NCBI GenBank assembly: GCA_016188385.1 | Contig: JACPHV010000003.1 | Coordinates: 1-35,874, forward strand | DNA length: 35,874 nucleotides | Source: Candidatus Uhrbacteria bacterium | Lineage (GTDB): Bacteria; Patescibacteriota; Patescibacteriia; JACQRZ01 | Direction of reading: 5' to 3' | In this document: one piece after another, positions 4,055 to 30,948 of the stretch | Layout: every line of letters starts with the position of its first letter | How positions within the stretch are numbered: position 1 is the stretch's first letter | The notes under the pieces: generated by a model | What the model was told of the DNA's origin: nothing | What the model saw: only the letters and a program-made list of their open reading frames with translations | Database searches by the model: none | Program-made: the position numbers and the translations under genes

Positions 4055-4437
4055 CTTTTTTGCTTGCGCTTCTGCTTGAAAATTGTAATCGCTTTTTGCA
4101 GCGCAGTCAATCCAAGCTGCGCGCACTGCTCACGAGCCTTACTCACAGGTATACCGAGCAGATCGGCTGCATCCTGTTGCGTAAGCTTCTCAATGGACCC
4201 GATGCTTTTCCCTTGTATGGAGTCAAGCAAGAGCGAAGTTGCTGCCTGGCTGATCGCGCATCCTGCTCCCAAGAAACGCGCATCGGCAACCTTGCCTTCT
4301 TTCACTGAAATATCGAGCTTGACGATATCTCCGCATAAAGGATTATGCTGCACGATATGCGCCGATGGGCGCGGCAACGATCCCCGGTGGCGGGGATGTC
4401 GGTAGTGGTCAAGTATTATTTCGGAATACAAATCCAT
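4051..4437 (-). CDS. sufU: SufU/IscU-like Fe-S cluster scaffold
   Basis: MDLYSEIILDHYRHPRHRG...NPLCGDIVKLDI...GAGCAISQAATSLL...; adjacent to sufS. Confidence 0.9.
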   Translation of the reverse strand: MDLYSEIILDHYRHPRHRGSLPRPSAHIVQHNPLCGDIVKLDISVKEGKVADARFLGAGCAISQAATSLLLDSIQGKSIGSIEKLTQQDAADLLGIPVSKAREQCAQLGLTALQKAITIFKQKRKQKR

Positions 4438-4444
4438 GAACTGT

Positions 4445-5689: not shown

Positions 5690-6291
5690 AATCGAAAGGA
5701 ACGATAAAAACGACGCGCGAGCGCGCTCGGCAATCGATTGATGTCATGTGAAAGAAACCCATTCACGAGCACTACGGTAGCTGCCGACGCTGACAGTCCG
5801 CGGGTACGCACATACACGAGATTGTTCGAGTCGAGCGGAGAAGTGGTGGCGGCATGCCTGGCGGAAACATCATCTGCTTCGATCTCGAGCGATGGCACTG
5901 CTGTTGAGTGCGCGGAGTCAGACAGCAATAGCGCGTGATGAGAAAAATAGGTATCCGCTTGATGGGCGTTTTTTTCGATGCGCGCGCTACCGCGAATATC
6001 ACTGGACGCGGCGCCGCTCAATACTCCTCTTCCATATATATATGCGGAAGTGCCTTTTGCTCTGTGAGTGATCGAAATACGCACCGAGTAAGCATCCATC
6101 GCGTATCCTATGTAAGCATAGCACATCAGCACGCGGGCGCCGTCACCGACAAGATCAATGGAACATTCGACCGGGGATTTTGCCGCTCGACTTACAAGGC
6201 CGCCAATGATCAATGTCTGTCCGCTTCGTACCGTATATGACGCGTCGCGGAATCGTGTGAAAAATACTGTTTTTATAGAAGACTGTTTCAT
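5665..6291 (-). CDS. sufD: SufD-like Fe-S assembly protein, short (208 aa)
   Basis: C-terminal SufB/SufD core: SHHALLLSDSAHSTAVPSLEIEADDVSARHAAT...VYVRTRGLSASAATVVLVNGFL; between sufB and sufS. Confidence 0.85.
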   Translation of the reverse strand: MKQSSIKTVFFTRFRDASYTVRSGQTLIIGGLVSRAAKSPVECSIDLVGDGARVLMCYAYIGYAMDAYSVRISITHRAKGTSAYIYGRGVLSGAASSDIRGSARIEKNAHQADTYFSHHALLLSDSAHSTAVPSLEIEADDVSARHAATTSPLDSNNLVYVRTRGLSASAATVVLVNGFLSHDINRLPSALARRFYRSFRLCKSLENT

Positions 6292-6300
6292 GAGAGAGGA

Positions 6301-7719
6301 TCATCCAACGGAGCCGGTCATTTCCAACTCAAGTAAACGGCGCAGCTCTACAGCGTACTCCATTGGCAGCTGCTTGATAATCGGTTCGGCAAATCCATTC
6401 ACGATCAATGAAGCAGCGTGCTGCTCGGTAAAGCCGCGCGAACGCACATACTGAAGCGCTTCTTCGCTCATCTTTGCTACGGCTGCTTCGTGCGCCACGT
6501 TCGCGCTTGCGTCGTTCACGATCATCGTTGGATAGGTATCAGAACGCGACGATGGATCAAGGATGAGGGCGTCGCACACCACGCGGACGGTAGCGTTGCG
6601 CGCGCTCTTTCCGATGCGGACAAGTCCGCGATAGGAAGTCCTGCCTCCATTGCGGGATATGGACCGTGAAACGATTGTGGCGCTGGTATCTGGCGCAACG
6701 TGGATAATCTTGCCGCCAGCATCTTGATGCTGGTTCGCTCCGGCAACGGCAAGCGATTGGATCTCACCGCGCGCATTTCGGCCGCGTAAGATGATCGATG
6801 GATATTTCATTGTCAGTTTCGAACCGAGATTACAGTCAAGCCATGTCATCCGAGCATCTTGATCGGCGGTAGCTCGCTTCGTCACAAGATTGTATACATT
6901 ATCAGACCAATTTTGGATTGTCGTGTACTGAACCTTCGCGCGTTTTTTCACAAAAATTTCAACGACGGCAGAATGCAGCGAATCGACTGTATATTGCGGA
7001 GCGGAGCATCCTTCCACGTAGTGCACAGAACTATCCTCATCCGCTATGATGAGCGTGCGTTCAAACTGACCCATGGATTGCCGGTTGATCCGAAAGTACG
7101 CCTGTAAAGGCAACGCGATATTCACGCCCGGAGGGACATAAATAAATGATCCGCCGGACCATACGGCGGTATTTAACGCCGCGAATTTATTATCGCTTGA
7201 CGGCACGAGCGTGCCGAAATATGTACGAACGATCTCCGGATACTCACGCAATGCGTCGTCCATACCGAGAAAGATCACTCCTTGCTTCTGCAATTCCTTC
7301 TGTAATGAATGGTAGACGACTTCACTCTCAAATTGCGATCCGACACCGGCGAGATATTTCCGTTCTGCTTCAGGAATTCCGATCTTTTCGAATGTCTCTT
7401 TGATGTGCGGCGGCACGTCTTCCCATCGCTGCGCTCCGCTCTCTGCCGGCTTGACGTAATAGTAAATGGCATTAAAATCGATTCCCGACAAATCGCCGCC
7501 CCAAGCAGGAAGAGGTTTTTCGTAAAAGACTTGGAGAGCGGAAAGCCGTGCTTCAAGCATCCATGAAGGCTCCTTTTTCCTCTCGGATATGAGGCGGACG
7601 GTTTCTCGCGATAGGCCGCGAGGAGCGCGAAATAGCTCACTGGCTTTTGTGCGAAACCCCAATCGATTACCGCTGACAGCGCGACTGATGCGATTTTTTG
7701 TGATTTGTGATACAGGCAT
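6301..7719 (-). CDS. sufB: Fe-S cluster assembly protein SufB
   Basis: NTAVWSGGSFIYVPPGVNIALPLQAYFRIN, QFERTLIIADEDSSVHYVEGCSAPQY, VQNWSDNVYNLVTKR-type motif. Confidence 0.96.
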   Translation of the reverse strand: MPVSQITKNRISRAVSGNRLGFRTKASELFRAPRGLSRETVRLISERKKEPSWMLEARLSALQVFYEKPLPAWGGDLSGIDFNAIYYYVKPAESGAQRWEDVPPHIKETFEKIGIPEAERKYLAGVGSQFESEVVYHSLQKELQKQGVIFLGMDDALREYPEIVRTYFGTLVPSSDNKFAALNTAVWSGGSFIYVPPGVNIALPLQAYFRINRQSMGQFERTLIIADEDSSVHYVEGCSAPQYTVDSLHSAVVEIFVKKRAKVQYTTIQNWSDNVYNLVTKRATADQDARMTWLDCNLGSKLTMKYPSIILRGRNARGEIQSLAVAGANQHQDAGGKIIHVAPDTSATIVSRSISRNGGRTSYRGLVRIGKSARNATVRVVCDALILDPSSRSDTYPTMIVNDASANVAHEAAVAKMSEEALQYVRSRGFTEQHAASLIVNGFAEPIIKQLPMEYAVELRRLLELEMTGSVG

Positions 7720-7729
7720 GCGCTTATCG

Positions 7730-8512
7730 TTACGGTTTCAAAAATGGAGCGAATCCCTTATCCGCCACCAAATCCATGAGATCTTTCGATCCGGTGCGCA
7801 CGATGCGGCCTCGAATCATGATGTGCACATACGAAGGATCAACGTAGCGCAAGAGGCTCGGGTTATGGGTGACAAACACAAAGCCTGCATTGTATTCGAT
7901 CTGATGTTCACGCAACGCATGGAGACATACTTTTAACGCATCAATATCGAGTCCCGAATCTATTTCATCAAGAAAGGCAAACGACGGCTTCAGCATGAGC
8001 AATTGAAGAATTTCTGACTTTTTTTTCTCTCCGCCGGAGAATCCTTCGTTCAGCGAACGCGTCAGAAAAGACTGCTCAATGCCGAGTCGGGACGCTGCCG
8101 TTTTGAGAGTAGCGGCATATGATTTCAAGTCGCTCTTGGGAAGACGGTTGCCTCCGACTGATTGCGCGTGGTTGAGAAGCGAGAGTACGGAAACGCCGGG
8201 GAGAACAGGGGGATTTTGAAATGCTAAAAATAGTCCTTCGGATGCGCGTTTTTCCGCCGGCAACTTCGTGAGCGATTTATTTCCAAGGAGGATCGAACCG
8301 CTGGTAATGCGATACTGTGGCAAACCCATCAAAGCTCCCGCAAGAGTGCTCTTTCCGGATCCATTCGGTCCCATCAAAACATGGGTTTCACCTCGTCGCA
8401 CGACAAGCGAAACGCAACGCACGATCGGTTCCTTTCCGATCGCTACGGAAAGAGAGCGACACCGAAGAGACGTTGGAGAAGACGGAAGTTTTTTTGCCGA
8501 TCTCTTTTTCAT
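7730..8512 (-). CDS. sufC: Fe-S assembly ATPase SufC
   Basis: Walker A GPNGSGKSTLAGAL, signature NEGFSGGEKKKSEILQ, Walker B FAFLDEIDSGLDIDAL. Confidence 0.96.
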   Translation of the reverse strand: MKKRSAKKLPSSPTSLRCRSLSVAIGKEPIVRCVSLVVRRGETHVLMGPNGSGKSTLAGALMGLPQYRITSGSILLGNKSLTKLPAEKRASEGLFLAFQNPPVLPGVSVLSLLNHAQSVGGNRLPKSDLKSYAATLKTAASRLGIEQSFLTRSLNEGFSGGEKKKSEILQLLMLKPSFAFLDEIDSGLDIDALKVCLHALREHQIEYNAGFVFVTHNPSLLRYVDPSYVHIMIRGRIVRTGSKDLMDLVADKGFAPFLKP

Positions 8513-9015
8513 GACTGTACGGACGAGTCTGAAAGGATAAACTCCGCGAGGGTCTTGGAAGTGTAGATCTCGCGAATTTGATTATTCATCCGGGCAAGAC
8601 CGCGGCGAACGCTGCAAAATCTTTCGCGAGGGCATGTACGCGCCCGAACATGAGATTCGAGCAGACAATCCATGAGCGCAATTGGATTATCGAGCGCTTC
8701 TACGATTTGTTTCATGGTCACCTCTGAAGGGCGGCATACGAGAACGTACCCCCCTACTTTCCCGCGAGATGCCCGCACGAGCTCGGCATGCTTAAGACGG
8801 TTTGCGACTTTTTGCAAAAATGAAAAGGAAAGATTGTATTTCTTTGCGATTGAACGGATTGATTGCGGGTCTTTTCCGTTCGCCAAAACGGAAAGAAAAA
8901 AAAGGCCGTAATCCACCATTTGCGTCAAGTGAAACGCGCCCGCCCGTATGTTTGATTTTTTACTTCTGCACCGGCTATTCATACCAAAAAAGGAAGAATT
9001 AGAGATTGGTACCAT
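8509..9015 (-). CDS. Rrf2-family regulator; true start possibly at 8982
   Basis: DYGLFFLSVLANG..SIRSIAKKYNLSFSFLQKVANRLKHAELVRASRGKVGGYVL plus a C-x10-C-x5-C triad; first gene of the suf cluster. Confidence 0.9.
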   Translation of the reverse strand: MVPISNSSFFGMNSRCRSKKSNIRAGAFHLTQMVDYGLFFLSVLANGKDPQSIRSIAKKYNLSFSFLQKVANRLKHAELVRASRGKVGGYVLVCRPSEVTMKQIVEALDNPIALMDCLLESHVRARTCPRERFCSVRRGLARMNNQIREIYTSKTLAEFILSDSSVQS

Positions 9016-11467: not shown

Positions 11468-13529
11468 CTACCGCATACGAAATCCCCCACCACTCCCACC
11501 GCCGGGAAGCCCCGGAATGCGGAAGGAAGGATTTTGTCCTGACGCGGAATTCGCGCCAGTCGAAGACTGATCAACCGTGCGCATAACGACTAAACTCCCC
11601 TCTTCAATACCGGAAAGAATTTCAATGGATTCATCGTTTGAGATCCCAACCTCGATTGGCACGCGGCGAGGCGGATTTGCAAGAACCACTCCACCGGACG
11701 AAAGAACGGCCTGCTCCGAACTGTCTTCCACAAGATCGATCGCATACTGCTCACCTTGCAGCTTAACAGCGCTCGCGGGAACAATGAGAGCATCAACGCG
11801 CGTATCGACGATAATTGCCGCGCTTACGCTCATGCCGGGTTTTATCCGTTCGTCATCCGTATCAAACGCGATCGTCACGGCATATGACACAACCCCCTGC
11901 GAAACAGAACCGATCGTATCAATCTCGACAATAGATCCGGTGAGCTGAATATCGGGAACAGCGTCAAATGTCAAAGTAGCCTTCTGCCCGATCGCGAGAC
12001 GCGAAACATCAATCTCGTTGAGGCTAAGGTCCGCGATGCTTGTCTTTGTGATCAGGGTTGAAAGTACAGCGCCCGCGTTCACGGTATCGCCTGGTTTAAC
12101 CGCCACGTCAGCCGCAATCGCGTCAAACGGAGCAACAATTCGATAATCCGCAAGTTTTTCCTTAGCGTCTTCCAGCGCATTGGTTCGCTCCAAGATCGCG
12201 ATTTTTTGAGAACGAATGTCAAGCTCATCGAGGGGCTCTTGCAGCTTTGCAATCGCCTCCAGTCTTTCGTTCACTTTTTCTTTCGCGGCAACAATCGTTT
12301 CCCCATCCGCAGGTTCGGTCAATTTTGCCAAAGATTCCTCGCGTTCGTTTTTCCGTTCAATCGCGGTCGCTAACGATTCAGCGTCTGGTCCGTTTTTCAA
12401 ATCTTCGAGGTACTTGTTTTTTTCGGCTAGAGTTCGTTCTGTGCTCGTTATCGATCCTTTTCGATCGTCGATTGAACGCACGATCGTCTGTAAATCCGCA
12501 TATCGGGTATTCATTTTCGCGGTATGAGTGTCCAGAGCCGCCTGATGAGCAATCATCAAAGAGGGTACGGAAAGATTTTTATCCTCCATCACAGCTTGAA
12601 CAAAATCAAGATAGGTATCAGCCGCTTTCACGGAATCATTCACGGCCGCGACTGCTTTAAAGGTATCGATAATGAGCTCTTCTCGATCCTGACTTGGCGA
12701 GACGCGGCTCGTGCGCGTGTACGCGGCATTCGTTGCTTCGGTGCTCGCACGTGCCTTGTCATACGCAGAATTAGCCAGATTTTTCTTTTCAAACGCAGAA
12801 TCGTATTCCCATGTCATGATCCTGTTCGTATACCAATCACTATTGGTCTGCGACCGTTCAATCGTATTCGTATACAGGGTATCTGAAATCCCGTTGAGCG
12901 TCGCTACTAGATCAAGCATTGCAGTAGTGACGCTTGTAAATCCGTCTTCGTATGTCTTCTCAAGGTTTTTTTGAGCGTCTGCATAGCTTTGGTGCGCTTG
13001 CTCTACCGCATGCTCTGCCTGTAGCAACGCAAGCGCGTCCGGAGGTTTTTGCAGATCCTCTAATTCCCTCTTTGCTTGAGCGAGCGCGTTTTGCGCCTGA
13101 AGCAACGCAAGCGCGTCCGGAGGTTTTTGCAGATCCTCTAATTCCCTCTTTGCTTGAGCGAGCGCGTTTTGCGCCTGAAGCAACGCAAGCGCGTCCGGAT
13201 TTTCGCGCAACGCGATCGTCAATTTGGAATAACGTCATGTCTTTTGAAATCTCGCTTCCTTGCTTCACGTTTATTGATACAACGTCACCGGATACTTTCG
13301 TTTTGATGTCGATTTGATTCTGCGCCGATATCTGTCCGGTACCTGAAACTGAAGCAACAATTATACCGCGTTCAGCGCGGGCTAGAGCATACCGAACCTG
13401 TGCCGGACCCTTGGTTGCGGATGAATAAAGATAGTAGCCACCGGCTAGTATCGCGATTACGAATACTAAGCTAATACGCGAACGCGAACGAAAAAATGAA
13501 AACAGGCTGCTGCTTTTTGTTATATCCAT
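11468..13529 (-). pseudogene. MacA/HlyD-like periplasmic adaptor, frameshifted near 13200-13222 (may be sequencing/assembly error)
   Basis: N-terminal part in one frame (MDITKSSSLFSFF...GQISAQNQIDIKTKVSGDVVSINVKQGSEISKDMTLFQIDDR), remainder in another (IALRENPDALALLQAQNAL...VAPFDAIAADVAVKPGDTVNAGAVLSTLI...IRIPGLPGGGSGG-type tail). Confidence 0.88.
13023..13199. repeat. Perfect 78-bp tandem repeat, 2 full copies plus 21 bp
   Basis: 13023-13100 and 13101-13178 are identical; 13179-13199 repeats the first 21 bp. Encodes (PDALALLQAQNALAQAKRELEDLQKP)n in the adaptor coiled coil. Confidence 0.97.
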
Positions 13530-13596
13530 AGAAAAAAGTGATACATTCATTATTGATAATACCTCTCGCGCTCCATGGTTGCACGAGACCAAAGTA

Positions 13597-17221: not shown

Positions 17222-17306
17222 CGGAAGGGGCGGGATTCGAACCCGCGGTACCTTTCGGTACACAGTCTTTCCAGGACTGCCAATTAAACCGCTCTTGCAC
17301 CCTTCC
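17222..17306 (-). tRNA. tRNA-Ser(GGA)
   Basis: GGAAGGG/CCCTTCC acceptor, anticodon stem-loop CAGTC-CTGGAAA-GACTG, long variable arm GTACC-GAAA-GGTAC, T-arm GCGGG-TTCGAAT-CCCGC, discriminator G. Confidence 0.96.
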
Positions 17307-17958
17307 ACATTTGGTACTTACCATTGATCCTCTCATTCGACGTATTAAAAACTGAAAGATATGAATGAACGGCTTTATCACTATACAAATATATACTCCT
17401 CATCTGCTTTGCGTAGTGTGGCTGCACACCATTTTCCGCCAAGATATTCCCGACCGATACAAGAAGTTTTTTTGAGTAACTCACAAAGCAAAAACCAATA
17501 TTCCAATACCTATTGCCGCTAACGCTATGTTTATGTGTATACAGGCAACCATCGGTATCAACGAGTCCACGAACAAATGCTCGCTTATATTCTGACCTAC
17601 CCTCTATCCATGAGGGTATATCAATTTGCTGTTCTATCTTGTTTCCACGCACCGCCCCCATCTTTACAAGAAAATCAACGAGATTCGTGCTGGAAAATCT
17701 TAGTACCAGTGCTTTGCTTTTTTTTTCTTTTTTGGCTGCAGCTTCAATACCAAAAAGTTCTTTGCCTAATTGTATAACATATTTGGCATACTCTCTATCT
17801 GCCACTGAATTTACCGTTACCGTAAGCTGCCAATCGTTATTAATTCCACCGTCACCAAAAATTATACCCATGAACTCTGCTAATTTTTTTGATTTTTGTG
17901 GATATTGGATTTCCTTCCTATGGCTTTTTTTAGGGTATTTCAATTCCGATAAAAACAT
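17284..17958 (-). CDS. LAGLIDADG-type homing endonuclease-like protein; C-terminus runs into tRNA-Ser
   Basis: Two LAGLIDADG-like motifs: LAEFMGIIFGDGGIN and FVRGLVDTDGCLY. The track ORF begins at GTG 18000; ATG at 17958 is a more likely start. Confidence 0.85.
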   Translation of the reverse strand: MFLSELKYPKKSHRKEIQYPQKSKKLAEFMGIIFGDGGINNDWQLTVTVNSVADREYAKYVIQLGKELFGIEAAAKKEKKSKALVLRFSSTNLVDFLVKMGAVRGNKIEQQIDIPSWIEGRSEYKRAFVRGLVDTDGCLYTHKHSVSGNRYWNIGFCFVSYSKKLLVSVGNILAENGVQPHYAKQMRSIYLYSDKAVHSYLSVFNTSNERINGKYQMWKGARAV

Positions 17959-17973
17959 ATGAGGAGCTCTCAG

Positions 17974-18014
17974 CGATTTAATACATGCGCACTCGACCAC
18001 TATGCGAACCCTCC
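17974..18014 (-). other. Putative orphan 5' half of a class II tRNA (tRNA-Ser-like)
   Basis: GGAGGGTTCGCATAGTGGTCGAGTGCGCATGTATTAAATCG looks like acceptor 5' strand, D-arm (GCA..TGC) and start of an anticodon arm; no matching 3' half (..GGTTCGA..ACCCTCC) seen downstream. Confidence 0.45.
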
Positions 18015-19269: not shown

Positions 19270-22023
19270 ATGAAAGAACAAGAACGCCAACAACAAAGCG
19301 CGATTCCATGGCATACGCTTCCGTTAAAATCAGTCGAGGATACGCTCCAGACGCCGTTCGCGACAGGGTTGACTTTTGACGAGGTAAAAAAACGGCTCGC
19401 GACGTACGGAGCAAACCAGCTGCCGGAAGAAACCTATGATTCTCTCACGATTATTTTTTTTCGCCAATTCGCCAATCCGCTGATCGCAATCCTTCTTCTC
19501 TCATCGGTCGTGATGATCTTTATTCGACACTTCTCCGACGCCATTATCATCACGGTCGTTTTGGTGTTCAACGCGGTGATCGGCGCGATCCAAGAAGGTC
19601 GCGCGCAGAAAACGCTTTCCGCTCTAAAGCGGTTTGCCGTCACGAATGCGGTGGTGCTCCGTGAAGGCCAAGATCGTATTGTGCCGGATACGGATGTAGT
19701 ACCCGGCGACATTCTCTTAGTCCAAGAGGGGGCAAAAATACCGGCAGACGCGCGCATCATCGAAGCATACGGATTGCGTGTGGACGAAGCCGCCCTTACC
19801 GGGGAATCAGGACCGATCGATAAGCAGGTAAAGACCTTCAAAGACCCGCTCATGCCAGTTGCAGATCGCACCAACATGATATTAAAAGGAACAGCGGTAT
19901 TGAGCGGCAACGGCATTGCCGTAGCCGTAGAAACAGGCTTGCGCACGGAATTCGGGAAGATCAGCACAGCGATTTCAAAAATCGAATCAGAAATTCCGCT
20001 CAAGCGCGACATCGAAAAACTCTCGCGTTTTATCCTTATAGCCATATCTACCATCTCTGTCGCTCTGTTCGGATCCGGTGTTTATTTCGGCGCCGATATT
20101 TTTGAAATGTTTGTAATCGTGGTGGCTTTGGCAGTCTCCGTAGTACCGGAAGGCCTTCCCGTCGTGCTCACCATCGTACTTGCCAACGGCGTGTGGCGAA
20201 TGGCGCGGCGAAATGCGCTCATCAAACGCCTGCAGGCTGTCGAAGCGCTTGGGCAGGCTGATATCATCGCGGTGGATAAAACAGGAACAATCACGAAAAA
20301 CGAAATGGTGGCGCGGCTTGCCTATGTGGAATCTACCGCTTTTACGATTACCGGCGACGGCTATGCGCCGAAAGGGGCTATACTTCGCGATGAAATGCCG
20401 ATCGACCCGAAAGAGCATGGATCCTTACAGTTGTTTCATCGCATAGGATCGCTCTCCGCGAACGCTCATACCGCCTACAGCGAAGCAGAAAAAAGATGGA
20501 CCATAAGCGGAGATCCCACGGAAGCTGCTATGGCGGTATGTTCCGCCAAATGCGGCGAAACAAAAGAAAGCATTGATCAGACATATCCGCGCATTGCAGA
20601 AATCCCGTTTACCACGAGCACGAAATATCATGCCGCCCTCGCGCGCGGCGGAAAAAACACCATGCTGCTTGCAATCGCGGGAGCGCCGGAAGCAATCATG
20701 GCAGTCAGTAAAAAAATCCGAGAGGGCGGCAAAGATGTCGCACTGAGCAAGGCTCGACAAGAAGCGTTTGAAAAAGCATACCGCGCCGCATCGCATAAGG
20801 GACTGCGGGTCATCGCTGTTGCCTATCGAGAATTTCCAAAAAAGAAAGATCAGCTCGCCGTCGAAGATATCGCGTCGCTCACGCTACTCGGATTTTACGG
20901 CATAGAAGATACCATCCGCGCGGAAGTCAAATCGGCCGTGGAAAGCGTTCGGCGCGCGGGCACTCGCGGCGTCATGATCACCGGCGACCACAGACTCACC
21001 GGACAAGCGATCGCGCAAAAGGCCGGAATCTTCCAGGAAGGCGATGATGTGATCACCGGAAAAGAATTGGAAACTTTGTCGACAGAAGAGTTGAAGCAGC
21101 GGCTCGCGCGTGTTACGGTATTTGCCCGCGTTACGGCAGAACATAAAATGAAAATTATCGAATCGTATAAAGCCCGCGGTGAAATCATCGCCATGACCGG
21201 TGATGGAGTAAACGATGCCGCGGCGCTGATGGCTGCCGATCTCGGTATCAGCATGGGGAAAGTCGGCACTGATGTGGCGAAAGAAGCATCCGATATCATA
21301 TTACTTGATGATAATTTCGCAAGTATTGTGGCCGCGTTGGAGGAAGGCCGCGCCATTTATCGATCAATCAAGCGCGCGCTCCTGTATCTCTTCTCCACGA
21401 ACATAAGCGAGATGCTTATTATCATCATTGCCGTACTCGGTGGTTTTCCTCTCCCGCTCACGGCGGCGCAAATCATTTGGCTCAACCTCGTCACAGATAG
21501 TTTTCCGGTAATTGCTTTGGCAATGGAGCCGAAATCAAACGAAATGCGGCCACGGACGCCCGCGCAAAAAAAGCAAGGTATTTTTGATACGCACATGAAA
21601 AAACGCACCATACTCATGGGGCTTACGATGACCGCAACGACGTTTATGATATTTGCAGGGTATTTCCAAACGGATCTCGCGAAAGCGCAAACAATGACAT
21701 TCGTCACTCTTGCGTGCGCGCAGCTCTTTAATTCTCTCAACTGCAGATCTCGGACGAATTCGCTTTTCAGAATGAATCTGTTATCAAACCGATGGCTGAT
21801 CGGCGCGATCGCGTTTGCCGCGGCATTGCAATTCATAGCAGTCTACTCGCCACTGCTCCGATCGTTGCTCCATACGGTGCCTCTCTCCGCGCAAGAGTGG
21901 GGAGTGGCGATCGGCGCCGGATCAGTGGTGATACTGGCAGACGAGATACGAAAATTCTTTGGCGGCAATAAACAAAATCACCAACTCACTCTATGGAATC
22001 ACTCCTCCACTTCGACCTCATAG
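19270..22023 (+). CDS. Cation-translocating P-type ATPase (P2-like)
   Basis: VVPEGLPVVLTIVLANGVWRMARRNALIKRLQAVEALGQADIIAVDKTGTITKNEM; MTGDGVNDAAALMAADLGISMG; track start at 19054 overlaps rmuC and is too far upstream. Confidence 0.95.
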   Translation: MKEQERQQQSAIPWHTLPLKSVEDTLQTPFATGLTFDEVKKRLATYGANQLPEETYDSLTIIFFRQFANPLIAILLLSSVVMIFIRHFSDAIIITVVLVFNAVIGAIQEGRAQKTLSALKRFAVTNAVVLREGQDRIVPDTDVVPGDILLVQEGAKIPADARIIEAYGLRVDEAALTGESGPIDKQVKTFKDPLMPVADRTNMILKGTAVLSGNGIAVAVETGLRTEFGKISTAISKIESEIPLKRDIEKLSRFILIAISTISVALFGSGVYFGADIFEMFVIVVALAVSVVPEGLPVVLTIVLANGVWRMARRNALIKRLQAVEALGQADIIAVDKTGTITKNEMVARLAYVESTAFTITGDGYAPKGAILRDEMPIDPKEHGSLQLFHRIGSLSANAHTAYSEAEKRWTISGDPTEAAMAVCSAKCGETKESIDQTYPRIAEIPFTTSTKYHAALARGGKNTMLLAIAGAPEAIMAVSKKIREGGKDVALSKARQEAFEKAYRAASHKGLRVIAVAYREFPKKKDQLAVEDIASLTLLGFYGIEDTIRAEVKSAVESVRRAGTRGVMITGDHRLTGQAIAQKAGIFQEGDDVITGKELETLSTEELKQRLARVTVFARVTAEHKMKIIESYKARGEIIAMTGDGVNDAAALMAADLGISMGKVGTDVAKEASDIILLDDNFASIVAALEEGRAIYRSIKRALLYLFSTNISEMLIIIIAVLGGFPLPLTAAQIIWLNLVTDSFPVIALAMEPKSNEMRPRTPAQKKQGIFDTHMKKRTILMGLTMTATTFMIFAGYFQTDLAKAQTMTFVTLACAQLFNSLNCRSRTNSLFRMNLLSNRWLIGAIAFAAALQFIAVYSPLLRSLLHTVPLSAQEWGVAIGAGSVVILADEIRKFFGGNKQNHQLTLWNHSSTSTS

Positions 22024-22601
22024 CGCTTGTACAGACGGTAGGCATTATCGGCATCGCGGCAATCATTTTTGCCGAAACTGGTCTGCTCATCGGATTTTTC
22101 TTTCCCGGCGACAGCCTTCTGTTCACCGCCGGATTTCTCGCGTCGCAAGGTATGTTTCCGATCGTTTTGCTCGTCGCGGTCTGCTTTAGCGCGGCAGTTG
22201 CGGGCGACAGCGTAGGATACGCGATCGGCGCTCGGCTTGGGCCGCGCATTTTTACAAAAGAAAAATCGCGGCTGTTCCGCCGCGAACATCTTGAACGCAC
22301 GAAAGCATTTTACGCGCGGCATGGAGGCAAGACCATCATCCTCGCGCGCTTCATCCCGATCATCCGCACGTTCGCGCCAACACTCGCCGGCGTGGGTAAG
22401 ATGCCATATCCGACATTTCTCGCCTACAACATGGTTGGCGGATTTCTATGGGGCGTATGCGTGCCGCTCGCGGGATATTTCTTGGGCAGCGCGATCCCCT
22501 CGGTTGACAAGTATCTCGTCCCGATCGTCGGGGGAATCATTATCGTTTCTCTTATCCCCGCCATTCGAGAATACACACGAATGCGCGCGGGACGGACATA
22601 A
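21993..22601 (+). CDS. DedA-family membrane protein
   Basis: FAETGLLIGFFFPGDSLLFTAGFLA...AGDSVGYAIGARLGPRIF...FYARHGGKTIILARFIPIIRTFAPTLAGVGKM. Confidence 0.95.
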   Translation: MESLLHFDLIALVQTVGIIGIAAIIFAETGLLIGFFFPGDSLLFTAGFLASQGMFPIVLLVAVCFSAAVAGDSVGYAIGARLGPRIFTKEKSRLFRREHLERTKAFYARHGGKTIILARFIPIIRTFAPTLAGVGKMPYPTFLAYNMVGGFLWGVCVPLAGYFLGSAIPSVDKYLVPIVGGIIIVSLIPAIREYTRMRAGRT

Positions 22602-23636
22602 TCACCACTCCAGCGTACCGCCAGTCGAATATTCCGTGACGCGTGTCTCGAAAAAATTTTTTTCTTTGGAAAGGTCAATCGCTTCCGACATCCAGGGAAA
22701 AGGATTTTGGCTCCCGTATTGTACCGGCAGACCGATGCGTACGAGCCTGCGGTCGGCAATATATTGGATATATTCTTTGAAGCTGTCGGCATTCATGCCG
22801 AAAATGCCTTTGGGAAATACCTCGCGCGCGAACGTATATTCAAGCTCGGTTCCTTTGCGGATCAAATCGACCGCGTGCGCTTGAAAATCAGCAGTCCATA
22901 CTTCCGGCTGTTCTTCTTTGATGCCGTTGATAATGTTGATGCCAAAATTCAAGTGCTGCGATTCATCGCGCATGATGTATTGGATCTGCTCCGCCGATCC
23001 CACCATTTTATTCTGCCGCTGAAAGCCAAACATTACGGCAAAAGAGCTATAGAAAAAGATCCCTTCCATAATGATAGAAAATACAATCATGTTTTCCACG
23101 AATTTCTGATCTGCCGCGAGCGTACCGGTCTTGAATTGCGGATTAAACAAACCCTCGTTGAAGCTCAAAATGAATTCATCTTTGTTGTATATCGCATCCA
23201 CCTCGCGATACATGTTAAAAATCTCTCCTTCGTCAAGGCCGAGGCTCTCTACGATGTATTGGTATGAATGGGTGTGGATCGCTTCTTCGTATGCTTGACG
23301 CAGCAGATACATGCGGCATTCAGGTGACGTAACATGACGGTACGCCGCAATGACAATATTATTTGCCGCGATCGAATCACCGGTAGTAAAAAATCCAAGC
23401 ACTGTCTTGAATGCCTTGCGTTCATCATCGGTAAGCACAGTGGAAGATTTCCACTGTTCAATGTCATTTTGCATCGTGATTTCGGTCGGAAGCCAGTGGT
23501 TGGCGTTGCCTACATTGTAGGCAGTCCAAGCAAACGTATGCTTCATGGGATAGAGCTGGATGACATCGGCGTCTTCACCGTTGATAATGCGTCGCTTATT
23601 GATGTTGACTCGCTCTGAAGTTCTTATAATAGGCAT
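22602..23636 (-). CDS. nrdB: Class I ribonucleotide reductase beta subunit
   Basis: TGDSIAANNIVIAAY...QAYEEAIHTHSYQYIVESLG (radical Tyr context) ... MRDESQHLNFGINIING; C-terminus STGGTLEW. Start moved to internal ATG. Confidence 0.95.
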   Translation of the reverse strand: MPIIRTSERVNINKRRIINGEDADVIQLYPMKHTFAWTAYNVGNANHWLPTEITMQNDIEQWKSSTVLTDDERKAFKTVLGFFTTGDSIAANNIVIAAYRHVTSPECRMYLLRQAYEEAIHTHSYQYIVESLGLDEGEIFNMYREVDAIYNKDEFILSFNEGLFNPQFKTGTLAADQKFVENMIVFSIIMEGIFFYSSFAVMFGFQRQNKMVGSAEQIQYIMRDESQHLNFGINIINGIKEEQPEVWTADFQAHAVDLIRKGTELEYTFAREVFPKGIFGMNADSFKEYIQYIADRRLVRIGLPVQYGSQNPFPWMSEAIDLSKEKNFFETRVTEYSTGGTLEW

Positions 23637-23649
23637 AGCGGATGATTGC

Positions 23650-26523
23650 TTACTGGCACGACTCGCAATCGGGATCTTCAATCTTGCAAAGAGGTACGGA
23701 AGATACGGCTGACGCAGGAGCCGCGGCAGCAACGATCGAATGTTGAGTCTGTCGCGCCTGTTGTTCGTTTTTTTCAGCTTTCTGATTACCGGGTATCTGC
23801 ACCGCGATTGAAATCGCGGAGCGGACTTCTGGCTGCTGTTTGCGAAGATGCGTACCGGAATACTCTGCCGCATCCAGCGTGGCTTTCTCTACCTGCGAAG
23901 CGGCAAGCGTCCGAAGATAGTACGTGGTCTTCAATCCGATCTGCCACGCATAGAGATACGTATCAGAAAGTTTTTTGCCGGAAGCGCCGTGGAAAAAGAC
24001 ATTCAACGACTGGCTCTGATCGATCCATTTGCCGCGATAGGCAGCTGCTTTGACAATCCATACAGGATCAATCTCGAACACTTCCTTGTATGTGCGCCGT
24101 AACGATTCCGGAATTTCATGGATTTCTTGGATGCTGCCATCATGATACTTTATCTTGCCCAGCATCTCGTAATCCCAGAGTCCGGCCGCCTTTAGGTCTT
24201 CAATCAAGTAGGGATTAACGACGGTGAAATCGCCACTCATGTTCGATTTCACGTAGATATTTTTATAGATCGGCTCAATGGATGGCACGGTGCCTGCGAT
24301 GTTGGATATCGTTGCAGTCGGCGCGATCGCAAGACAATTGGAATTACGCATACCATAACGGCGTACGGATTGACGCACTACGCTCCAATCAAGTTTGCCA
24401 ACACGCGGGATGTCTATCTTCTGTCCGCGCTCCTGTTCTACAAGATCAATCGTATCTACGGGGAATAATCCGCGATCCCATTTTGACCCGCTATAGCTTG
24501 TGTATGATCCCCGCTCGCGGGCCAAAACGCTGGATGCCAGGATTGCGTGATACGCCACAATCTCCATGCTTTCGTCGGCAAATCGCACACATTCCTCGGA
24601 ATCGAATTGAATGCCTTTCAAGTACAGCGCATCCTGAAAACCCATGATGCCTAACCCTACGGGACGATGCCGAAGGTTAGAGGTACGCGCTTCTTTTGTG
24701 GGGTAATAATTTACATCAATTACATTATCCAACATACGCATCGCCACGGGAATGGTGCGCGCGAGTAATTCCACGTCGAGTTCGCCCGCCTTCATGTGCT
24801 TGGAAAAATTAATCGATCCAAGATTGCACACGGCGGTTTCTTCCTCGGAGGTGTTCAACGTGATTTCCGTACAGAGATTGGAGCTGTGCACGATACCAAT
24901 ATGATCCTGGGGAGACCGCACATTGCAAGGATCCTTAAACGTTATCCATGGGTGTCCGGTCTCATAAAGCATGGAGAGCATTTTCTTCCACATATCGCGC
25001 GCCTTCACGGATTTGGTAAGTTGGAATTTCCCATCGCGCGCATCCTGTTCATATTTCACATACCGCTCCTCAAAACGCTTCCCGTAAAGATGGTGCAAGT
25101 CCGGCACTTCATGAGGTGAGAACAATGTCCACATCCCATCTTCCTGAACCCGCTTCATAAAAAGATCGGGGATCCAATGAGCGGTATTGATGTCGTGGGT
25201 GCGGCGGCGCTCATCACCTGTGTTTTTGCGAAGCTCCACATAATCCTCAATGTCATAATGCCATGTTTCGAGATATACGCAGGCAGCGCCGCGACGTCGG
25301 CCGCTACGATTGATGGCATGAGTCGCGTCATTTGATACTTTAAGAAATGGCACTACGCCTTGGCTTTCGACTCCGATACCCATGATCAGCGCGCCGGTTG
25401 CTCGGACATTGCTCCAATCCGTGCCGATGCCGCCTGACCATTTAGAGAGCTGGGCATTATCCCCCACCACTTTAAAAATATGGTCGAGGGAATCCATTAC
25501 GGTATTTAAGTAGCAAGAGGAAAGCTGGGGATGCTCGGTGCCCGCGTGAAAAAGCGTAGGTGTCGATGGAACATAACGCAACGTCGATGCCACTTCGTAA
25601 AATTCCTTCGCGCGAAGCATCTTTTCTTTTTCCTTGAGCGCGAGTCCCATCGCGACGCGCATCCAAAATGCCTGGGGAGTTTCGAGTACGCGTTTTGCGT
25701 ATGGATCACGTAAAAAATACCGATCATACAATACTTGCGTGCCGAGATAGCGCAGCAAATCATCCCGCTCAAGCACGAGCTCTCTGCTTAAGGCATCCAG
25801 ATCAAATGTGAGCAAACGCGGGTCCAGACGGCCGATTTCAACGCCTTTCTTGATATTCGTCACAAATGCCGCGCGGTAGTGCTGTTCCAGTTTCGATGCG
25901 TCAAAATTATCGCCGATTGCTTCGCGATACAAAGAGTGGAGCAACAAACGGGACGCGAGACGAGAGTAGGCGGGATCAAGCTCAATCAGAGCGCGTGATG
26001 CCATCATCAAACCATAAAAAACTTCGTTTGTCGCGATGCCATCAAACAAATCATTACGGCATTGACGAGCGACTAAAGCCACATCAATTTGTTTTTCAAG
26101 ACCTGCGGTAAAATGAGCAAGGCAATGCTCAAGCTTTTCAAGCATGAATTGCTCGCGCGCGCCGGATCGTTTGATCACGACAAGTTCATTGCGTTCGATT
26201 TTTTCGCGGAGCTCCTGCTGTTTAGCGGCGCGTTGTTTGGTGTGCTCGTAACGGTAGATTATGTACGCGCGTGAAACGTCAAAGTAGCCGCGCTGGGCGA
26301 TAATACGCTCCGCTATATCCTGCACGTCTTCCACGCCGGGGATGACGCCATCACGGATGCGATCTTCGAGAAGTGAAACAACTTCATCGGTGAGTGTCGG
26401 AAAAAAACTTGAATCCACGATAATGCCGCACGCATTGAATGCTTTTTGAACCGCGCTTTCGATGCGGTAGCGGTCAAACTCAACGATAGAGCCGTTGCGC
26501 TTCTTGATCTTTGTGAGAGCCAT
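23650..26523 (-). CDS. nrdA: Ribonucleoside-diphosphate reductase alpha subunit
   Basis: N-terminal ATP-cone (KKRNGSIVEFDRYRIESAVQKAF), PSTPTLFHAGTEHPQLSSCYLNTV, NLCTEITLNTSEEETAVCNLGSINF, C-terminal CESC. Confidence 0.97.
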   Translation of the reverse strand: MALTKIKKRNGSIVEFDRYRIESAVQKAFNACGIIVDSSFFPTLTDEVVSLLEDRIRDGVIPGVEDVQDIAERIIAQRGYFDVSRAYIIYRYEHTKQRAAKQQELREKIERNELVVIKRSGAREQFMLEKLEHCLAHFTAGLEKQIDVALVARQCRNDLFDGIATNEVFYGLMMASRALIELDPAYSRLASRLLLHSLYREAIGDNFDASKLEQHYRAAFVTNIKKGVEIGRLDPRLLTFDLDALSRELVLERDDLLRYLGTQVLYDRYFLRDPYAKRVLETPQAFWMRVAMGLALKEKEKMLRAKEFYEVASTLRYVPSTPTLFHAGTEHPQLSSCYLNTVMDSLDHIFKVVGDNAQLSKWSGGIGTDWSNVRATGALIMGIGVESQGVVPFLKVSNDATHAINRSGRRRGAACVYLETWHYDIEDYVELRKNTGDERRRTHDINTAHWIPDLFMKRVQEDGMWTLFSPHEVPDLHHLYGKRFEERYVKYEQDARDGKFQLTKSVKARDMWKKMLSMLYETGHPWITFKDPCNVRSPQDHIGIVHSSNLCTEITLNTSEEETAVCNLGSINFSKHMKAGELDVELLARTIPVAMRMLDNVIDVNYYPTKEARTSNLRHRPVGLGIMGFQDALYLKGIQFDSEECVRFADESMEIVAYHAILASSVLARERGSYTSYSGSKWDRGLFPVDTIDLVEQERGQKIDIPRVGKLDWSVVRQSVRRYGMRNSNCLAIAPTATISNIAGTVPSIEPIYKNIYVKSNMSGDFTVVNPYLIEDLKAAGLWDYEMLGKIKYHDGSIQEIHEIPESLRRTYKEVFEIDPVWIVKAAAYRGKWIDQSQSLNVFFHGASGKKLSDTYLYAWQIGLKTTYYLRTLAASQVEKATLDAAEYSGTHLRKQQPEVRSAISIAVQIPGNQKAEKNEQQARQTQHSIVAAAAPASAVSSVPLCKIEDPDCESCQ

Positions 26524-26607
26524 ACGGGTAGCTTGTTAGGCTTTAGACGTCAGGCATGGAGTATTGTGTTCTCCTTCCATACAGGACGCCTGGAGCCAAC
26601 AAGGGAC

Positions 26608-26645
26608 AAAAAAACGGACCCATAGGTTGTATCAGAGGCCGTTTT
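26608..26645 (-). terminator. Intrinsic terminator or attenuator in the trxB-nrdA intergenic region
   Basis: Minus strand AAAACGG...CCGTTTT stem (26645-26639 / 26617-26611), extended by CC/GG with a bulge, ending in T7. Confidence 0.65.
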
Positions 26646-26713
26646 CTATTCATCGACATCAAGGATATCAAGCGACTTCGAGAGAGTCTGTGCATCGTGC
26701 CAAGGCGAATGCT

Positions 26714-26742
26714 ATCCTATCAATATCCGGTATGGGTGTAAA
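26714..26742 (-). promoter_or_regulatory. Candidate sigma70 promoter for nrdAB, upstream of the terminator-like hairpin
   Basis: Minus strand TTTACA-(17 nt)-TAGGAT. Confidence 0.5.
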
Positions 26743-26768
26743 GTGGATAAGTGCGGGTTTTGCGAGTC

Positions 26769-27737
26769 TCAACCGATTCCGTCAGGAGCTTTGCCATGCA
26801 GCTTGCACAGATCTCCGTGAATCTTATAGTATTCATAGGCGGACGTGGCGGCAACCGCGCCCATGGCGGCGGCTGTGATATCCTGTCTGAAGCCTTCAAA
26901 CAGGTTAAAAATATCGCCCGCTACGAATGCTCCGGGCACATTGGTGCGCATCATCTGATCGGCTTGAGCGTATCCCTTCTCGTCAAGATCAATACCCGCT
27001 TTTTTCAAAAGCTCGGAGCGCGGCAGCAGACCGACTTCGATAAAAAGACCGTCAACGGCTAAATCGGTTGAGCCATTGACCGGTTTGGATAACACGGCTT
27101 TTTCGAATTTCCCTTCGCCGACTATTTCTTTCACTTCGGTTTCAAAAAGCACCTCTACTTTATCGCCGAGTCTTTGCATGCGCTCATAATTAATCGGCTC
27201 GGCGGATACTTTTGTGCCACGAACGATGAGATAGATTTTTTTCGCGTATTCCGCTGCCAAATTAACTCCTTTTATTGATGAATCCCCGCCGCCGACAACC
27301 GCAATCGTCTTCCCGCCATAGAGCGGCCCATCGCACGTCACGCAGTAATGCACGCCTTTGCCGGTAAGCTCTTTTTCATTCGGGATGCCGAGCCGGCGGT
27401 GCTCCGTGCCGGTGGCGATTACAAGGGTATTCGAAAAAAATTCCTCCCCCTTTTTTGTGCGTACCGCAAAGCAACCGCTTTCAGTGCGTCGGATATCTTC
27501 AACACGGCCGTCTCTGATCTCAATGCCAAGATCCGTAGCCTGTTTTTTCATATTTACCATCAGATCAAATCCGTCGATCGATGAATATCCCGGATAATTT
27601 TCGATCGGACCCGCAATACTGGTATACCCGCCGAATTCATCGCCGATCACGAGGGTATTCATGCGATAACGGCCGGAATACACAGCCGCTGAAAGACCGG
27701 CAGCGCCGGAGCCGACAATGATAAGATCGTAAGACAT
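26769..27737 (-). CDS. trxB: Thioredoxin reductase
   Basis: IVGSGAAGLSAAVYSGRY, GVHYCVTCDGPLYGGKTIAVVGGGDSS (CVTC active site), GAFVAGDI. Confidence 0.96.
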   Translation of the reverse strand: MSYDLIIVGSGAAGLSAAVYSGRYRMNTLVIGDEFGGYTSIAGPIENYPGYSSIDGFDLMVNMKKQATDLGIEIRDGRVEDIRRTESGCFAVRTKKGEEFFSNTLVIATGTEHRRLGIPNEKELTGKGVHYCVTCDGPLYGGKTIAVVGGGDSSIKGVNLAAEYAKKIYLIVRGTKVSAEPINYERMQRLGDKVEVLFETEVKEIVGEGKFEKAVLSKPVNGSTDLAVDGLFIEVGLLPRSELLKKAGIDLDEKGYAQADQMMRTNVPGAFVAGDIFNLFEGFRQDITAAAMGAVAATSAYEYYKIHGDLCKLHGKAPDGIG

Positions 27738-27758
27738 GCCTGCGGTTTGTTCTTCGAA

Positions 27759-27938
27759 TTATTCTTTCTGACAACACTTGCAGCCGGATCCGCTTTCTTC
27801 CGTGCAGCATTTCGCGTCATCGGATTCCTTTTGCTCGCAGCATGTGTTCTTATCCGCGCAACACGCTCCCTGACAGCATTCCCCTTCTTTGCATAGGCCT
27901 CCTTCGCATTGTTCGCATGTTTTTTTGTCGTCATGCAT
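27759..27938 (-). CDS. 59-aa cysteine-rich (14 Cys) metallothionein-like small protein, absent from the ORF track
   Basis: Own translation: MHDDKKTCEQCEGGLCKEGECCQGACCADKNTCCEQKESDDAKCCTEESGSGCKCCQKE*. Fills the trxB-grx gap; AGGA upstream of ATG. Confidence 0.8.
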   Translation of the reverse strand: MHDDKKTCEQCEGGLCKEGECCQGACCADKNTCCEQKESDDAKCCTEESGSGCKCCQKE

Positions 27939-27971
27939 ATGAATCGTCCTGTTATGAATATCTTTGATGTA

Positions 27972-28211
27972 TTACGCTTCCAATCCGAGCAAACTCGCGA
28001 GTTTCGCTTTATCAAATCCAACGACAAGCGTACCGTCAATATCGATCACCGGCACGCCGAGTTGGCCGCTTTTCTGGACCATTTCATCGCGGGCAGCCGC
28101 ATCAACGCTTACATCTTTCTCTGTATAGTGCACATTATTCTCTTGGAAATAGGCCTTCGCCATTTTGCAATATCCGCATGTCGGAGTGGAATAAATCGTC
28201 ACATTTGCCAT
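27972..28211 (-). CDS. Glutaredoxin-family / NrdH-like redoxin (CGYC)
   Basis: MANVTIYSTPTCGYCKMAKAYFQENNVHYTEKDVS...GQLGVPVIDIDGTLVVGFDKAKL. Confidence 0.92.
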   Translation of the reverse strand: MANVTIYSTPTCGYCKMAKAYFQENNVHYTEKDVSVDAAARDEMVQKSGQLGVPVIDIDGTLVVGFDKAKLASLLGLEA

Positions 28212-28240
28212 AAAGCATGATCTTACGAGTAAGTATTGGC

Positions 28241-28268
28241 AGTATAAATGCTCGCGATAGAAGTGCAA
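28241..28268 (-). promoter_or_regulatory. Candidate sigma70 promoter for grx-(Cys-rich)-trxB
   Basis: Minus strand TTGCAC-(16 nt)-TATACT, about 30 nt upstream of the glutaredoxin ATG. Confidence 0.6.
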
Positions 28269-28327
28269 AGGGGATAAGTTGAGACTGGTGAAACATAGCT
28301 TCACCATTGTCGTCAGTGGGGGGATTT

Positions 28328-28930
28328 TTACTGCCTCCGATAGCGGCCGATAAGCTCGGCGCTGTCAAGGATATGTCCCTCCATAGCTTGTTGCGCGGCC
28401 GCCTTTGTTGATCCGGCGGGAAGATCGAGTAGTGTGTCAAGCGCGTAGAGCCTGAAAAAATACCGGTGCTCGCTGTCCGGCGGGCACGGATTATAGTAGC
28501 GCCGACTGCCCGCGGTATTGCTGCCTACCACGCCCGACGGCACTTCCCCTTCGCCGATACCGGTGGAAGACGGCGGGATATTCCATACTACCCAGTGGTC
28601 AAACATGCCGTCAGGCATGATGCTTTTCGGCACGTCAGGGTCGTCTATGAAAAACGCGAAACTTTTTGTCTCTGCCGGTACGCCGGTAAACGCAAGCGGC
28701 GGACTTATGCCATCTCCGTCGCATGTATAAACAACGGGAATAAGGCTATTGTGCAAAAATGCGCTGCTCGTGATTTGCATACCGTCAGTACGATTAAAAA
28801 TAAAATACTTTTGCTTCTGCTCAAGCGACGGTCGGACGATCGGCTCTGTCTGCCGGGAAAACCGTAAATATGTCGTTGTCCCCACAAGGACTAGTCCCGC
28901 GATAAGCAGAGCAATAGTACGCGCACGCAT
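28328..28930 (-). CDS. PEBP / YbhB-YbcL family (Raf kinase inhibitor-like) protein with N-terminal TM
   Basis: IPVVYTCDGDGISPPLAFTGVPAETKSFAFFIDDPDVP...DHWVVWNIPPSSTGIGEG...YNPCPPDSEHRYFFRLYAL. Confidence 0.95.
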   Translation of the reverse strand: MRARTIALLIAGLVLVGTTTYLRFSRQTEPIVRPSLEQKQKYFIFNRTDGMQITSSAFLHNSLIPVVYTCDGDGISPPLAFTGVPAETKSFAFFIDDPDVPKSIMPDGMFDHWVVWNIPPSSTGIGEGEVPSGVVGSNTAGSRRYYNPCPPDSEHRYFFRLYALDTLLDLPAGSTKAAAQQAMEGHILDSAELIGRYRRQ

Positions 28931-28935
28931 AATAT

Positions 28936-30084
28936 CTATAGTATACTATCACCGAGACGTTTTGAAAAAGACGATAACACTTCTGCTCCGTTTGCGCGCA
29001 CGACCACCGTATCCTCTATTCGTACGCCTCCGGCAGGTATAGATCCGAGCTGCTGCGGATAATACAATCCCGGCTCTATCGTGACGACCATCCCCTCCTT
29101 CAGCTCGGAGTGGCACGATCCAAGACGCGGCTCTTCATGAATTTCGAGACCTACGCCATGTCCGAGACCATGAATAAACCCGTATACCGGCCGTGAAGAT
29201 ACATTTGTCGGATAACCTTTTTCTTCAAAAAATTTTTTTACCCACGCATAGATTTCAAAACCATCGACGTCGGCGATAACTTTTTCCGTTGCTCCTGTCT
29301 GCGCTTCATATACCGCTTCGTAGAGCGCTTTCATTTCTTGTGATGGTTCGCCTTTGAATACCGTGCGCGTGCAATCGGTGAAATACAACGATGAACGGGA
29401 TCGCGGAAATATATCAAGTACGATCGGCTGGTATGCTCGGATCGGGCCGCTCCCTCTCATGTGCGGATCAGCCGCTTGCGCACCGCAGGCAACGATTGTG
29501 TCAACAGCAAGATAGCCCTCTTGATAAAGCGAATGTTCAATGATATCACGCAGAATCTCTGATGTAAGGCCCTGGGAGCCGTATGAGGAGTGCGCAATAT
29601 ATTCGCCGTTGATACGCGCTTCACTCAAAACGGTACATACCCGCTCCAATGAGCGATCCACTGCCGCTTGGGCAGAAGCGATTTCAGCTATCTCGTGCGG
29701 CTGTTTGCGCACGCGGTCGGGGTAAAAAGCATCACGACAGACGGACACTGGAAAATGTTTTGACAAATTATCCCCCACATGAAATGGGATGCCGCCGGAA
29801 ATCTCTACGGTATCAACGCCTTTACTCTTTAGAAACGCAACGAGCGGCGAGACCCCTTGTGCATGTGCATTGCCCGCGAGAGATTCAATATAGACAACCT
29901 CGTCAACGCGTGCTTGCTTTTGCGCCCGTTCCACTTCGAGTGAAGATACGAGCAGATGCCGTTTGCCGTCGATTTCGACAAACGTGACAGGATCAGGCAC
30001 GCGAAACTGCGCGCGCCACAACAGATCGGCGCAAAAATGCGGCGATCCGAGATCAGTTGCTCCATGAAGTATTTTGGCATGCAT
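28936..30084 (-). CDS. M24-family Xaa-Pro aminopeptidase-like
   Basis: LDIFPRSRSSLYFTDCTRTVFKGEPSQEMKALYEAV; YGFIHGLGHGVGLEIHEEPRLG; LKEGMVVTIEPGLYYP. Confidence 0.95.
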   Translation of the reverse strand: MHAKILHGATDLGSPHFCADLLWRAQFRVPDPVTFVEIDGKRHLLVSSLEVERAQKQARVDEVVYIESLAGNAHAQGVSPLVAFLKSKGVDTVEISGGIPFHVGDNLSKHFPVSVCRDAFYPDRVRKQPHEIAEIASAQAAVDRSLERVCTVLSEARINGEYIAHSSYGSQGLTSEILRDIIEHSLYQEGYLAVDTIVACGAQAADPHMRGSGPIRAYQPIVLDIFPRSRSSLYFTDCTRTVFKGEPSQEMKALYEAVYEAQTGATEKVIADVDGFEIYAWVKKFFEEKGYPTNVSSRPVYGFIHGLGHGVGLEIHEEPRLGSCHSELKEGMVVTIEPGLYYPQQLGSIPAGGVRIEDTVVVRANGAEVLSSFSKRLGDSIL

Positions 30085-30129
30085 AGATTTGAAACATCTG
30101 TAAAAATCGCGGGGGTAATCAGATGCTCG

Positions 30130-30948
30130 TCACTGAATGACGTTTGCGATCGCGTGCAATGCATCGCTTGCGAGCGTCCCCTCGCCGTATTTCTTCGCGG
30201 CACGCTCCCCTGCTTTGCCATTGATGTATGCGGCAGCAGAGGCGGCTTGCAAAGGATCAATGCCGCGCGCAAGAAGCGCGCCGCATATACCCGCGAGCGT
30301 ATCGCCAAATCCTCCCTTGGTCATATACGGTGTACCGGTGCGGTTGCGGACTACTCTCGTTCCATCGGAAATGATATCAACATTTCCTTTTAGAAGAATC
30401 ACAGCGCGAAAACGAAAAGCTGCTTGTTGTACTGCTCGTTCGCGTTCACGAAGCGCGGTGCTTGGCAATACACCGGTAAGAGCGCGAAATTCGTCCGCAT
30501 GGGGAGTAATAATCGTGGTTTTTCCTCGTACGGCTTTTTCATTTTGCGCGATCGCTCGGATCGCTTCCGCATCAATCACAAGCGGCAGCTGGCATTGTTT
30601 CAAAAACGTACGGATCGCTCGATATGTCTGCGGGCTACGCGCCAAACCGCCACCGATCACACACGTATTCGCGTGTTCGCTTATCGCAAGCGCTCTCGGG
30701 ATATGCTTCATGAGAAACTCCCCGTCAAGCGGCTCGGTGATCATATCCGGCGCATGGTGCGCTGCAGCATCCATAGCGCGTTGCGGTCCGATCAAATAGG
30801 CGAGATCAGCGCCGGCGCGCAATGCCGCCATTGCATTAAATATCGGCGAGCCCGTATGGCGTATGCTTCCCCCGATTACAAGCACGGTTCCAAAATCGCC
30901 TTTATGCGACCATCGTGGTCGTTTCTTATATATATCCCTAAAATTCAT
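30130..30948 (-). CDS. nnrD: ADP/ATP-dependent NAD(P)H-hydrate dehydratase (YjeF C-terminal type)
   Basis: HKGDFGTVLVIGGS...GSPIFNAMAALRAGADLAYLIGP...TIITPHADEFRALTG...TPYMTKGGFGDTLAGICGALLARG. Confidence 0.93.
   Translation of the reverse strand: MNFRDIYKKRPRWSHKGDFGTVLVIGGSIRHTGSPIFNAMAALRAGADLAYLIGPQRAMDAAAHHAPDMITEPLDGEFLMKHIPRALAISEHANTCVIGGGLARSPQTYRAIRTFLKQCQLPLVIDAEAIRAIAQNEKAVRGKTTIITPHADEFRALTGVLPSTALRERERAVQQAAFRFRAVILLKGNVDIISDGTRVVRNRTGTPYMTKGGFGDTLAGICGALLARGIDPLQAASAAAYINGKAGERAAKKYGEGTLASDALHAIANVIQ

Follow-up and report, generated by a model that had tools for sequence, protein, structure and literature searches.

A 59-residue, 14-cysteine, metallothionein-like protein encoded between glutaredoxin and thioredoxin reductase genes in a Candidatus Uhrbacteria genome

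A short cysteine-rich gene between two redox genes

The locus considered here lies in the window, i.e., the whole stretch of 35,874 nucleotides that we analyzed, which belongs to a genome (G000) of 1.03 Mb in 46 contigs. It raises the question of whether the DNA between a glutaredoxin gene and a thioredoxin reductase (TrxB) gene encodes a small protein and, if so, what this protein might do. An earlier note had placed an unannotated ORF for a 59-aa protein with 14 cysteines at 27759-27938 between these two genes; we found it exactly there, on the minus strand, in the following setting.

27972..28211, minus strand: glutaredoxin of the YruB family, 79 aa, active site STPTCGYC (TIGR02196, 95.2 bits at a cut-off of 88.55; PF00462)
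27947..27950, minus strand: AGGA, a ribosome-binding-like motif read from the sequence, 8 nt before the ATG of the small gene
27759..27938, minus strand: 59-aa, 14-Cys metallothionein-like protein; ORF whose cysteines and frame are kept in two relatives
26769..27737, minus strand: thioredoxin reductase-like flavoprotein, 322 aa (TIGR01292, E 4.6e-86, below the equivalog cut-off; PF07992)
23650..26523, minus strand: nrdA, large subunit of class I ribonucleotide reductase (NF005544, 1275 bits)
22602..23873, minus strand: nrdB, small subunit of ribonucleotide reductase (NF005550, 537.5 bits, residues 75-423); the true start is probably inside this ORF

The small gene runs from an ATG at 27938 to 27759 and starts 33 nt downstream of the glutaredoxin gene, while its end is 21 nt (at most 31 nt) upstream of the gene for TrxB. 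Its product, MHDDKKTCEQCEGGLCKEGECCQGACCADKNTCCEQKESDDAKCCTEESGSGCKCCQKE, has a mass of 6.35 kDa and a pI of 4.6, consists of 24% Cys, and contains one Ile/Leu/Val and no Phe, Trp, or Tyr. Between successive cysteines lie 2-4-4-0-3-0-5-0-9-0-7-1-0 residues, giving five CC motifs, one CxC, and one N-terminal CxxC. The protein is thus within the size and cysteine range of metallothioneins (<10 kDa, about 15-35% Cys) and shares their motifs (CC, CxC, and CxxC, with few or no aromatic residues), in line with the metallothionein-like composition that had been proposed. No signal peptide is obvious. As also anticipated, a second ORF overlaps the gene in a different frame on this strand (27659-28039, TTG start, 126 aa), and a length limit of 60 aa would drop the 59-aa ORF.

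The cysteine content of this ORF is far beyond what chance would give. In the window, six-frame translation yields 180 ORFs of 40-80 aa, of which the next Cys-richest listed have 4-6 Cys, and in 50 shuffles of the window, the maximum per ORF of this length was 8 compared with 14 in the small gene. Across 460 kb of related DNA, 1,969 ORFs fall in this size range, and the single one with more than 17% Cys also lies between glutaredoxin and TrxB genes.

The expectation that a genuine frame would be kept in relatives was borne out. Orthologs in two genomes (G001 and G005; 59 and 62 aa, 71% and 69% identity) retain all 14 cysteines as well as their spacing, except for a 2-residue insertion in one linker in G005. 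Pairwise comparisons of the three orthologs gave a pN of 0.17-0.21 and a pS of 0.87-0.97 (saturated); 12 of the 14 Cys codons vary as TGC/TGT only, and only the frame of the small gene gives an intact ATG-to-stop ORF in each of the three genomes. The near-saturated synonymous sites, the low pN, and the restriction of Cys codons to TGC/TGT support purifying selection on the reading frame. Because the flanking genes have a pS of 0.60-0.66 and a pN of 0.06-0.07 (G000 versus G001), the small gene evolves faster than its neighbors, yet is constrained. The 59-aa ORF is a real, selected gene.

With regard to transcription, no operon promoter was found above chance, terminator-like sites were likewise at chance level, and no Rfam elements were detected in 22000-30500. 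It is therefore the spacing of the genes that suggests cotranscription with the glutaredoxin and TrxB genes. The TrxB-like protein has a CVTC motif at residue 132 and a GGGDSS motif; it lacks the HRRxxxR motif for NADPH, with IVRGTKVSAEP in its place, and judging from these residues, its electron donor may be other than NADPH.

The glutaredoxin-TrxB slot in related genomes

Searches of Pfam, NCBIfam, and the PDB by sequence and profile returned no match for the 59-aa protein. The sole PDB hit, a disintegrin (E 0.82), was rejected as a chance Cys match. Membership in the known bacterial metallothionein family, raised in the earlier note as something to check, was not borne out: PF02069 (Metallothio_Pro) matched neither the protein nor anything above the cut-off in 192 genomes of the class, including that of the window, while the same search gave a match in the control, Synechococcus elongatus. 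A profile of the three close orthologs found nothing beyond these three in 381 class-wide genomes. AlphaFold, run on the single sequence without an alignment, gave a low-confidence model with no clear fold (pLDDT 64, pTM 0.38), a result that carries no weight for an apo Cys-rich protein.

We also read the slot between the glutaredoxin and TrxB genes directly, anchoring on TrxB in 11 family genomes and on glutaredoxin in 286 genomes of the class. Eight genomes carry a Cys-rich ORF in the slot, i.e., 7 of the 11 family members (G000, G001, G002, G003, G005, G006, and G008) and G012 from another family. In addition to the three orthologs, the occupants are as follows.

G002 slot ORF: 66 aa, 11 Cys
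G003 slot ORF: 47 aa, 13 Cys
G006 slot ORF: 50 aa, 10 Cys
G008 slot ORF: 53 aa, 6 Cys
G012 slot ORF (other family): 44 aa, 8 Cys

All five are on the same strand as their neighbors, start shortly after the glutaredoxin gene, and are followed by TrxB; a YruB-type glutaredoxin and TrxB flank the slot in 8/8 carriers. The slot proteins are alike in composition (4.4-6.7 kDa, pI 4.1-4.6, few aliphatic residues, and hardly any aromatic ones), and they differ in the number and spacing of cysteines. With the window protein as query, a genome-wide search matched none of the five diverged ORFs, so that members outside the close trio are detectable by position only. We infer that the diverged slot proteins are homologous from their position, strand, size, acidity, and Cys content. 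Each carrier has a single copy as judged by a profile of all eight proteins, the scores of which are not independent evidence of homology because the profile was built on these proteins. Among 333 phylum-wide genomes, this profile found nothing beyond the window, and no relatives of the small protein were found in viral contigs, plasmids, or phages.

Four of the 11 family genomes have no such ORF: hardly any DNA separates the two redox genes in G004, G009, and G010, and the roughly 150 nt between them in G007 contain no Cys-rich ORF. In six further genomes of the class with adjacent genes for glutaredoxin and a TrxB-like protein, the slot is likewise without such an ORF. On the TrxB tree, this distribution needs at least four changes and is explained equally well by a gene present in the ancestor and later lost as by one gained repeatedly.

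We note three arrangements elsewhere in these genomes. A 37-aa ORF with six Cys (L067, 2422-2535, plus strand) and a gene for a 48-aa SEC-C-motif protein (L070, 1619-1765, minus strand) each lie just upstream of a glutaredoxin gene in another family of the class. G008 has a second TrxB-glutaredoxin cluster on contig 56 (L011) that has no Cys-rich ORF; in it, a gene for an ArsR-like regulator immediately precedes that for glutaredoxin.

A proposed metal-thiolate buffer and its alternatives

Based on these data, we suggest, with a probability of roughly 60%, that the small protein is a cytoplasmic, metallothionein-like metal-thiolate buffer, the thiols of which are kept reduced by the flanking pair of reductases. 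A lineage-restricted type outside the named families is the best explanation for the metallothionein-like features. In the proposed mechanism, the small protein is probably produced together with the glutaredoxin and TrxB; being acidic, Cys-rich, and largely unfolded, it would wrap soft metal ions, perhaps Cu(I) or Zn(II), in metal-thiolate clusters in the cytoplasm and so buffer them, and the two reductases would keep its cysteines reduced and metal competent, in a cell apparently without glutathione and with no glutathione synthetase detected. What we infer here is that the protein binds metal, that TrxB and glutaredoxin reduce it, and that the three genes are cotranscribed. Among the slot proteins, Cys content persists although the precise arrangement of the cysteines changes; this is easier to reconcile with metal-thiolate or thiol buffering than with a fixed catalytic fold. 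Similarly, a shared composition without shared Cys spacing speaks for a flexible protein, a metal-thiolate or thiol buffer, rather than for an enzyme or zinc finger with a fixed fold. The earlier suggestion of metal sequestration or of a thiol buffer reduced by TrxB fits the place that the protein keeps next to glutaredoxin and TrxB in all eight carriers.

Several observations count against the metal-buffer reading. No gene for a metal regulator or transporter adjoins the small gene, there is no homology to known metallothioneins in the libraries searched, and the occupant in G008 has a mere 6 Cys. In addition, the presence of the small protein does not track with HMA genes: an HMA match is missing from the carrier G003, whereas three genomes without the protein (G004, G009, and G010) do have HMA matches. 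ArsR genes likewise showed no clear co-occurrence with it. A point in favor of this reading is an apparent CsoR-CopZ-CopA copper-export set, in a row, on another contig of the genome of the window (contig 12; L146, 971-3180), with CsoR and CopZ named by eye; HMA-domain proteins are present in this genome.

The main rival to the metal-buffer account is a primarily redox role, which we regard as unlikely. The protein would then be an electron reservoir or substrate for TrxB and glutaredoxin, a gene-encoded substitute for a low-molecular-weight thiol, with its vicinal Cys pairs cycling between dithiol and disulfide and with metal binding being incidental. Such a role would suit the strict position of the slot in all eight carriers, the five CC pairs, the lack of adjacent metal genes, and the finding that no glutathione synthetase domain (PF02955) was detected in the 12 genomes examined. 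However, the combination of CC and CxC clusters with a lack of aromatic residues is more characteristic of metal-thiolate proteins, one small protein makes a modest thiol pool, and because four family members have the glutaredoxin-TrxB unit and do without the protein, it is not a required partner of this unit. A speculative extension, to which we assign a distinctly low probability, is that the Cys-rich protein replaces glutathione in Uhrbacteria-like cells as both metal buffer and thiol pool, is reduced directly by the glutaredoxin and TrxB of the operon, and evolves at such a rate that nothing but its position gives it away.

The earlier note had also linked the protein to ribonucleotide reductase through its place in the gene block, and a metal chaperone that delivers to NrdB, or to Fe-S enzymes through the SUF machinery encoded in the window, would be in keeping with such a link. 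The window has nrdA and nrdB after TrxB, the C terminus of the nrdA product (CKIEDPDCESCQ) contains a Cys pair, and nrdA likewise follows TrxB in G001, G002, G005, and G008, i.e., in five of the seven assessable carriers (excluding G012). By contrast, G003 and G006 carry the protein, yet no nrdA was seen in the roughly 1.5 kb after TrxB, and G007 is the reverse case, with TrxB-nrdA present and the protein absent. A special tie to ribonucleotide reductase was thus not upheld: nrdA and the small protein probably have no functional connection, and metal delivery to the enzyme is disfavored since the slot tracks glutaredoxin-TrxB, not nrdA. Moreover, the number and spacing of cysteines are too variable for a specific docking partner, and we consider a chaperone role very improbable. 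The same low standing applies to a lineage-restricted, zinc-finger-like protein with a structural or regulatory role, or an unrelated peptide that happens to be Cys-rich. The small size, the N-terminal CxxC, and the members in G008 and G012, which look like loose zinc-ribbon fragments, would agree with a zinc protein, but CxxC knuckles do not recur in fixed pairs. A zinc ribbon or zinc finger was rejected as an assignment, given the lack of a Pfam, NCBIfam, or PDB match and a Cys spacing that is not kept across slot occupants.

Relation to known proteins and other features of the window

To our knowledge, few bacterial groups are known to have metallothionein-like proteins, and a search of an open-access paper library turned up no paper combining metallothionein with the Candidate Phyla Radiation. 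Eukaryotic metallothioneins are coupled to the thioredoxin and glutathione systems, and the metal load of their metal-thiolate clusters depends on the thiol redox state, a functional idea that the proposed buffer shares; the window protein has no homology to them, and its link to redox chemistry is the gene order with glutaredoxin and TrxB. Like SmtA/BmtA (PF02069), it is small, Cys-rich, and predicted to be cytoplasmic and to bind several metal ions; unlike them, it lacks a conserved internal His and the signature of a zinc-finger fold, and its sequence does not match theirs. SmtA is a four-Zn(II) protein, and bacterial metallothioneins often use His as a ligand (PMC10612145). A precedent for an overlooked Cys-rich metal protein is MymT, the 4.9-kDa Cu(I) metallothionein of M. 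tuberculosis, which is rich in Cys and had escaped annotation (PMC7558416). The window gene is likewise a short, formerly unannotated Cys-rich ORF; it differs in its setting beside glutaredoxin and TrxB, and no similarity between the products was detected in the searched libraries. The copper storage proteins (Csps), Cys-lined Cu(I) stores in bacteria, are also Cys based; however, they are folded four-helix bundles (PMC7558416), whereas the window protein has almost no hydrophobic residues. The small gene represents a case of a hidden gene that is below gene-calling length limits, has diverged past sequence search within one family, and is marked by gene order. If its neighbors do reduce the protein, the locus would offer a clean bacterial system for thiol redox control of metal buffering without glutathione.

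Elsewhere in the window, genes for SUF-type Fe-S assembly together with an Rrf2-like regulator lie at 3722-9015 on the minus strand, and a 238-aa ORF at 17284-18000 on the same strand resembles a LAGLIDADG homing endonuclease, both as judged by eye. A membrane-fusion/HlyD-like secretion gene beside an ABC transporter (11468-13592, minus strand) is split into the overlapping ORFs 11468-13222 and 12960-13592; the split sits at the short tandem repeat DALALLQAQNALAQAKRELEDLQKP, which suggests a frameshift or an assembly slip in the repeat.
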